Positions 196 through 252 of a stretch of 64,000 nucleotides of DNA are shown in pieces. Position numbers and translations under genes: made by a program. Under the pieces are notes generated by a model that saw only the letters and a list, made by a program, of their open reading frames with translations, ran no database searches and was not told the origin of the DNA. This DNA comes from Fasciola hepatica. Lineage: Eukaryota > Platyhelminthes > Trematoda > Plagiorchiida > Fasciolidae. The stretch spans positions 21,222,501 to 21,286,500 of the forward strand of contig CANUEZ040000067.1 in assembly GCA_948099385.1 (NCBI GenBank), written 5' to 3'. Positions within the stretch are counted from its first letter, which is position 1, and each line of letters begins with the position of its first letter.

Positions 196-252
196 GATGG
201 AAGCACTGTACAGCTGTTTCATCCTTGTTGGGAATCATCAGCAGTGCACATC
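196..252 (-). ncRNA. Type I hammerhead ribozyme (first copy)
   Basis: A self-cleaving RNA read on the minus strand. Seen in order: outer stem I strand GATG (252-249); one unpaired T (248); inner stem I GCACTG (247-242); core CTGATGA (241-235, C3 to A9); stem II TTCC / GGAT (234-231 and 224-221) closing a CAACAA loop; core GAA (220-218); stem III ACA / TGT (217-215 and 212-210) with a two-base GC loop; cleavage base A17 (209); inner stem I CAGTGC (208-203); bulge TTC (202-200); outer stem I CATC (199-196). Cleavage is predicted between 209 and 208, after a GUA triplet. A short stem III and an open stem I with an asymmetric internal loop are typical of animal satellite hammerheads. The pair at 10.1/11.1, usually G-C, is U-U here, which may lower activity. 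Confidence 0.92.

Follow-up and report, generated by a model that had tools for sequence, protein, structure and literature searches.

A 401-bp satellite unit of Fasciola hepatica with a type I hammerhead motif: a probable SM-alpha-like retrozyme whose head-to-head insertions resemble those of Penelope-like elements

The closest described systems are found among small animal repeats with a hammerhead ribozyme and among Penelope-like elements. For the SM-alpha and Sj-alpha elements of Schistosoma, non-coding repeats with a type I hammerhead and a tRNA-like part are described, which occur both in tandem and dispersed in these flatworms (PMC2770079, PMC8490949, PMC4918200), and in the accounts of S. 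mansoni SM-alpha the tRNA-like part is given as tRNA-Gln. The axolotl ribozyme HHR_Amex2 is described with a U.U closing helix II at its base and a helix III of two pairs; as a monomer it is reported to cleave to 22% within an hour, as a dimer to a far greater extent (PMC7229834). For Penelope-like elements containing an EN domain, head-to-head inverted pieces, partial tandems and target-site duplications of 8-10 bp are reported (PMC3846280). According to a 2020 review, the repeats of metazoan retrozymes show no conserved motif that would reveal an autonomous partner; Penelope-like elements and Terminons are named there as the likely ones (PMC7761336). Here, a satellite of F. hepatica is described and compared to these systems.

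The window, i.e. the complete stretch of 64,000 nucleotides analysed (C67:21222501-21286500, in a genome of 1.5 Gb in 656 contigs), is a single tandem array with a unit of 401 bp, 159.6 copies and 98% matches (TRF). Unit counts refer to the 159 full units, the partial unit formed by the last 241 bases being excluded. Based on the TRF period and on cutting and aligning the units, the first one comprises positions 1 to 401, with the minus strand as the transcript sense of the element. The edges of the array were read at C67:21094559 and at about C67:21959412, resulting in a length of 0.865 Mb, and 19 of 19 small spot checks between them matched in the same orientation. Tandem repeats within the 150-450 bp of retrozymes, a low G+C (0.465-0.469), the type I hammerhead described below and no LTR are found together in the 401-bp unit. 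A separate observation concerns the assembly: COX1 gave 33 matches, mostly on small contigs (C429, C468, C471 and others), and the copies on C429 lie 14.2-14.9 kb apart, as if mitochondrial genomes had been assembled in tandem. In the putative COX1, AAA takes positions that call for asparagine (GSINF, DRNF), in line with the flatworm/echinoderm mitochondrial code, and frames resembling ND1 and ND3 precede it; together with the trematode-like appearance of its protein, this indicates a flatworm, most likely a digenean trematode.

The type I hammerhead motif, including both sides of the outer helix of stem I, covers positions 196 to 252 on the minus strand of the first unit. The outer helix GAUG/CAUC pairs 252-249 with 199-196 and is followed by a U/UUC internal loop, stem I (GCACUG/CAGUGC) pairs 247-242 with 208-203, and the core consists of CUGAUGA (241-235), GAA (220-218) and A17 at 209. 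Stem III comprises the two pairs A15.1-U16.1 and C15.2-G16.2 and adjoins a GUA triplet; from the position in the motif, cleavage is expected on the minus strand between A17 (209) and C1.1 (208). Both the internal loop in stem I and a six-base loop II are present. The conserved stretches CUGANGA, GAAA and UH follow each other in order, with three stems and an opening at stem I, and the pair 10.1/11.1 is non-standard. All of the stems, the core, the A15.1-U16.1 pair and the triplet read by an earlier note on this DNA, including stem I with its outer helix across the internal loop, were recovered at these positions and in this order. The core was counted as intact in 107 of the 159 units, almost the same as the approximately 108 of 160 given before, and 103 units retain it together with exact stems I and III. 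Since only these 107 cores are intact, the claim of a hammerhead in every unit holds true for the location of the motif and fails for the core. The variants comprise C3 to A (21 units), G5 to C (15) and U16.1 to A (18), in addition to the tolerated change of U7 to C (19). The haplotypes that kill the ribozyme at unit positions 239 and 241, one with G5 to C and one combining C3 to A and U7 to C, do not form clusters but occur scattered over the array.

A chance resemblance to a hammerhead would fit the low scores of the window in Rfam. The covariance search that the earlier note had proposed as a check gave HH9 in all ten units of the first 4,010 bases, over 260-186, with 28.9 bits (E 2.6e-4) for nine units and 22.7 bits (E 0.024) for one; by E-value these hits are significant, while all of them stay below the gathering score of 52, and at the Rfam gathering threshold the window showed no hammerhead match. 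Against chance, a hammerhead descriptor found one minus-strand match in the unit and none on the plus strand, compared to one match in 60,000 dinucleotide shuffles. Together with the HH9 matches in 10/10 units, this led us to reject a chance motif. In the genome, at least 38 matches to Hammerhead_1 were obtained (74 of 288,504 first-look candidates scored), 37 of the 38 listed exceeding the gathering threshold, and 14 control genomes gave no Hammerhead_1 match. Of the 20 matches fetched, 16 were the element and four belonged to a second, dispersed hammerhead family (L110, L125, L127 and L128, with L110 and L128 99.5% identical). L110 shows a B-box-like stretch and a stem I of GCACCA/TGGTGC, and this family pairs stem I with other letters than the element. 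Altogether, coincidence has a practically negligible probability.

Covariation was evaluated in an alignment of 22 sequences (15 of the 16 element copies, three of the four members of the second family, the window, S2, L068 and L016). Stem I cells were standard pairs in 93.9%, the outer helix was paired in 64.8%, and 10.1/11.1 was unpaired in 9/22. The covariation is modest, with five pairs changing on both sides, a value reached by 25 of 500 shuffles, and the number of pair types did not exceed that of the shuffles (367/500). The motif is, as judged from these sequence tests, likely a self-cutting type I hammerhead ribozyme with a very short stem III, in line with the earlier assignment to the kind known from newts, schistosome SM-alpha and animal retrozymes.

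Stem-loop II (221 to 234, minus strand) is closed by a U.U at 10.1/11.1 (234 with 221), as determined from the unit alignment and the genome core count. In the window, U.U was found in 153 of the 159 units and C.U in six. The genome comprises 12,796 exact copies of the core, compared to none of the reversed pattern, and since only 29 of the 12,796 have G10.1, the U.U is the norm of the family. The idea that dispersed copies possess a G10.1 which the satellite has lost was rejected based on the same count; many of the first 20 fetched copies showed G10.1, and these 20 had been selected by Rfam score. The stem III palindrome ACAGCUGU (210 to 217, minus strand), the base of the predicted double hammerhead, is intact in 140 of the 159 units. 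For the RNA alone, an inactive fold of -21.0 kcal/mol was preferred over the active one of -11.5 kcal/mol, while cofolding of two copies gave the double hammerhead as the best structure with -47.9 kcal/mol. A double hammerhead was predicted for two of six cofolded sequences, that of the window and L112, and not for the other four. The mismatch in combination with the palindrome suggests that the hammerhead would act as a double hammerhead on stem III, as far as such modelling can indicate.

Directly upstream of the ribozyme, positions 258 to 330 of the minus strand comprise a tRNA-like sequence with the B-box-like stretch GGTTCGAGTCC. Within the first 4,010 bases, the tRNA model scored 21.2-26.8 bits in 10/10 units and stayed below the gathering threshold, which four matches in the window exceeded; ARAGORN found none. 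Among the 150 units located by an anchor (9 of 159 excluded), 77 show GGGTTCGAGTCC as their B-box-like stretch and 70 the one-change form GAGTTCGAGTCC. The first G of the stretch (unit position 279) is altered in 74 of the 159 units. The SM-alpha family is characterised by a tRNA-like part with pol III boxes, to which the tRNA-like part of the unit with its B-box-like stretch corresponds. A scan of the unit showed that positions 191 to 194, 14 nt past the cleavage site, hold the sole run of four U on the minus strand, a candidate pol III terminator. By their sequence, the tRNA-like part and this run could possibly serve as pol III promoter and terminator. The U.U mismatch, the stem III palindrome, the tRNA-like part, the dispersed copies and the insertion anatomy all go beyond the first reading of this DNA.

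The diversity among the units of the window amounted to 0.020 for the ribozyme and 0.022 for the tRNA-like part, compared to only 0.011-0.013 for the rest of the unit, and the idea that the array shows selection on the ribozyme was accordingly rejected. Such values would be expected of an ordinary satellite with a fossil hammerhead, inactivated by the U.U and the weak stem III and growing by unequal exchange alone, and the broken core in 52/159 units spread along the array points in the same direction. Furthermore, C197:598001-603000, 698001-703000 and 998001-1003000 (L065-L067) contain arrays of a diverged subfamily of about 423 bp, in the consensus of which (26 units, those of other lengths excluded) G5 to C and G12 to C break the hammerhead. 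Since this subfamily is still arrayed, array growth needs no active ribozyme. However, the axolotl ribozyme with the same mismatch is reported to be active (PMC7229834), and intact cores were found in 14/14 units examined at C163, 24/24 at C252, 23/24 at C275 and 47/48 at C197. In addition, the element exists in thousands of copies, many of them single or dispersed and some with target-site duplications, which indicates recent transposition. Taken together, we regard a mere fossil as improbable and retain the reading of a retrozyme. For comparison, intact cores amounted to 142/208 units at C67 and to 36/36 at C30, where overlapping loci cause some units to be counted twice. The subfamily shows an unaltered stem III and 3' side of stem I despite its broken core. 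Between the window unit consensus and L065-L068, C-G transversions were unusually frequent (22/73, 23/62 and 24/61 substitutions), compared to 12 of 111 variants within the window.

The first 100 of the 12,796 places in contig order form 51 clusters, of which 37 are single, two tandem, 12 divergent and none convergent. Divergent arms with several units were observed on C8 (8+11) and C10 (11+3 and 2+2), with 400 bp between units within the arms. The array on C8 is located at C8:10423470-10430895 and one of those on C10 at C10:1048928-1054009. No element copy was found in 30 kb from three arbitrary places (L022-L024), and 60.6 kb of non-array sequence contained four diverged copies, all near arrays, two of which represent one duplicated locus. 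Ten of the 16 dispersed copies, chosen by Rfam score and not by structure, were read with longer flanks. Eight of them comprise a head-to-head inverted arm, and in all eight the two arms contain shared sequence. All 18 outer arm ends (10 sense, 8 inverted) lie 41-100 nt past the cleavage site, i.e. in a 3' zone at unit positions 109 to 168 of the minus strand; the ends were taken from BLAST matches, and the zone was delimited with these ends already known. Target-site duplications of 10-14 bp were determined for four of the ten copies, while the other six showed no duplication of at least 10 bp. In the control, such duplications occurred in 0 of 90 swapped and 8 of 2,000 random pairs.

This anatomy has to be weighed against LINE activity. 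Twin priming by LINEs yields divergent arms, junction microhomology and duplications of similar size, and tRNA-derived SINEs are usually mobilised by LINEs. The same retrozyme might therefore have been moved by a LINE via target-primed reverse transcription, with twin priming producing inverted 5' arms. The arms as such would be expected from this process, and the junctions agree with it, comprising overlaps of 2-5 nt in six of eight and gaps of 3-4 nt in the remaining two. However, since the arms share sequence in 8/8 cases, one linear monomer cannot have served as template for both, and twin priming on such a monomer gives neither the shared sequence nor the common 3' zone. Moreover, Penelope-like elements of the same genome form tandem and head-to-head clusters, as published for these elements (PMC3846280). 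A LINE as the mobilising agent thus appears unlikely, though to a lesser degree than the fossil satellite, and mobilisation by Penelope-like machinery is considered in the following.

Both smaller arrays that were fully read showed target-site duplications and inverted left pieces. The 6.1-kb array of C163 is flanked by copies of AATATATGAATA and begins on the left with a piece of 165 nt in inverted orientation, and the array of about 37 kb on C30 is flanked by copies of CAAAGAATTATTTG, again with an inverted piece at the left. As a chance control, random 20-mers shared a match of at least 10 nt in 1 of 5,000 cases. The duplications of these two arrays and of the four dispersed copies correspond to those by which retrozymes are characterised. 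The empty site of C30 is preserved in a 99.8% identical inverted duplicate of the array surroundings. This duplicate (L016:3148-5413 and L017:2131-4396, 2.27 kb) flanks the C30 array and may either represent a true palindrome or stem from the assembly. The sense ends of both arrays lie near unit position 112, whereas the 3' zone does not include the end of the inverted piece on C30. At C67, no target-site duplication was found, the longest match between the edges being 8 nt. The edges of the C67, C252 and C275 arrays fall elsewhere in the unit, and the outer ends of the latter two run off their contigs.

Arrays of the C163/C30 type could go back to insertions of one or two units that grew afterwards, in which case the long arms would not originate from a circular template. 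Consistent with this, each array is homogenised separately, with 1-11 consensus differences between arrays, and the 0.865-Mb array is clearly the product of long-range expansion. In contrast, C8 and C10 with their many 400-bp units per arm would require both arms to expand independently, and the units of C163 are near-identical without a nested pattern: nine of the 14 full units equal the consensus. Two variants at C163 each occur in a pair of units that are not neighbours, a distribution not expected from one clean template. Later expansion is a real possibility, though somewhat less likely than not.

The proposal of Penelope-like machinery is based on the elements of the same genome. For GIY-YIG, at least 90 matches were obtained (150 of 302 candidates scored), and those listed form 73 clusters, 59 single, 10 divergent, four tandem and none convergent. 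A protein query from one of these elements gave at least 137 matches (136 of 10,173 candidates scored); after a second fragment of one copy was dropped, the 136 listed form 117 clusters, comprising 101 single, 12 divergent, four tandem and again no convergent ones. Intact elements exist in this genome, with open frames of 828 aa in several places, and the longest frame read (798 aa, L148) combines RVT_1 and GIY-YIG. The Penelope-like loci examined, which may lack pseudo-LTRs, contained no hammerhead, and the satellite had no significant similarity to these possibly incomplete loci. The element itself combines head-to-head arms, tandems and short target-site duplications in the manner of the Penelope type. 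Since the local clusters match both the orientation pattern of the element and the published anatomy, Penelope-like elements are proposed as the mobilising partner. Specifically, we suggest two-sided priming by their machinery on circular or multimeric RNA, starting from the same 60-nt 3' zone, so that cDNA arms of one to many units would be joined head-to-head and larger products would seed satellites. We put this forward tentatively, with a probability slightly below even.

With more confidence, the unit is considered to be probably a SINE-like non-LTR retrozyme of the SM-alpha kind, a non-coding retroelement whose parts are the tRNA-like sequence, the type I hammerhead and a 3' tail, with a cycle as follows. 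Transcripts of the arrays would have the minus sense and may be driven by the tRNA-like promoter, and in the multimeric RNA the hammerhead of each unit is predicted to cut at 209|208, for the most part in the double form. By analogy to published retrozymes, the pieces of about 401 nt may be circularised by a host ligase. A reverse transcriptase and endonuclease, presumably Penelope-like, would then copy the RNA where the target has been nicked in a staggered manner. With circular or multimeric RNA as the template, priming at both ends of the target could produce the observed footprint of head-to-head arms of one to many units between target-site duplications. Finally, unequal exchange would turn some insertions into satellites, and ribozyme-dead units may spread in these, as seen in the window and in the diverged subfamily.

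If two-sided Penelope-like priming is true, it names the missing partner of animal retrozymes and explains together their tandem, inverted and satellite-forming character. The insertion footprint makes the question of the partner testable from sequence in any genome with both kinds of elements. Furthermore, one family is visible here at several stages, from single insertions and head-to-head pairs via an array of about 37 kb with its empty site to a 0.865-Mb satellite with spreading ribozyme-dead units.

Compared to the known systems, the element agrees with HHR_Amex2 in the U.U at the base of helix II and the two-pair helix III (PMC7229834) and, as far as described, with newt satellite hammerheads in the weak helix III and the dimeric cleavage, which for the element is predicted (PMC7761336). 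However, those hammerheads originate from vertebrate hosts and repeats of 330-350 bp, compared to 401 bp here. With Penelope-like elements, for which the published account describes head-to-head pieces, tandems and short duplications (PMC3846280), it shares these features of insertion, and the local Penelope-like copies are likewise divergent and tandem. In contrast to the element, which showed no recognised coding, Penelope-like elements encode a reverse transcriptase and GIY-YIG. They also comprise pseudo-LTRs and palindromes at the inverted junction, whereas the junctions of the element consist of overlaps of 2-5 nt or short gaps.

The metazoan non-LTR retrozymes (Cervera and de la Pena 2020) are described with a type I hammerhead, repeats of a few hundred bp, a G+C below 50%, dimers to large multimers and target-site duplications above 4 bp (PMC7229834), and the element resembles them in all of these points. 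For these retrozymes circular RNA was reported (PMC7229834), whereas for the element it is presumed. The present description adds arms that are consistently joined head-to-head and an array as long as 0.865 Mb, and the passages of the retrozyme account considered here mention no head-to-head arms (PMC7229834). The non-coding character, the tandem and dispersed occurrence, the type I hammerhead, the tRNA-like part and the flatworm host are shared with SM-alpha and Sj-alpha; the SM-alpha unit comprises 335 bp instead of 401, the element carries the U.U at 10.1/11.1, and the likeness is one of architecture. None of the open-access papers listed names, in its title or at the start of its abstract, a hammerhead satellite with a 401-bp unit from a trematode other than a schistosome, or retrozyme insertions in head-to-head orientation. 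Altogether, the element is best placed among the metazoan non-LTR retrozymes, a known kind, resembling SM-alpha by its architecture; new in relation to these papers are the footprint left by its insertions and the agreement of this footprint with the Penelope-like elements of the genome.
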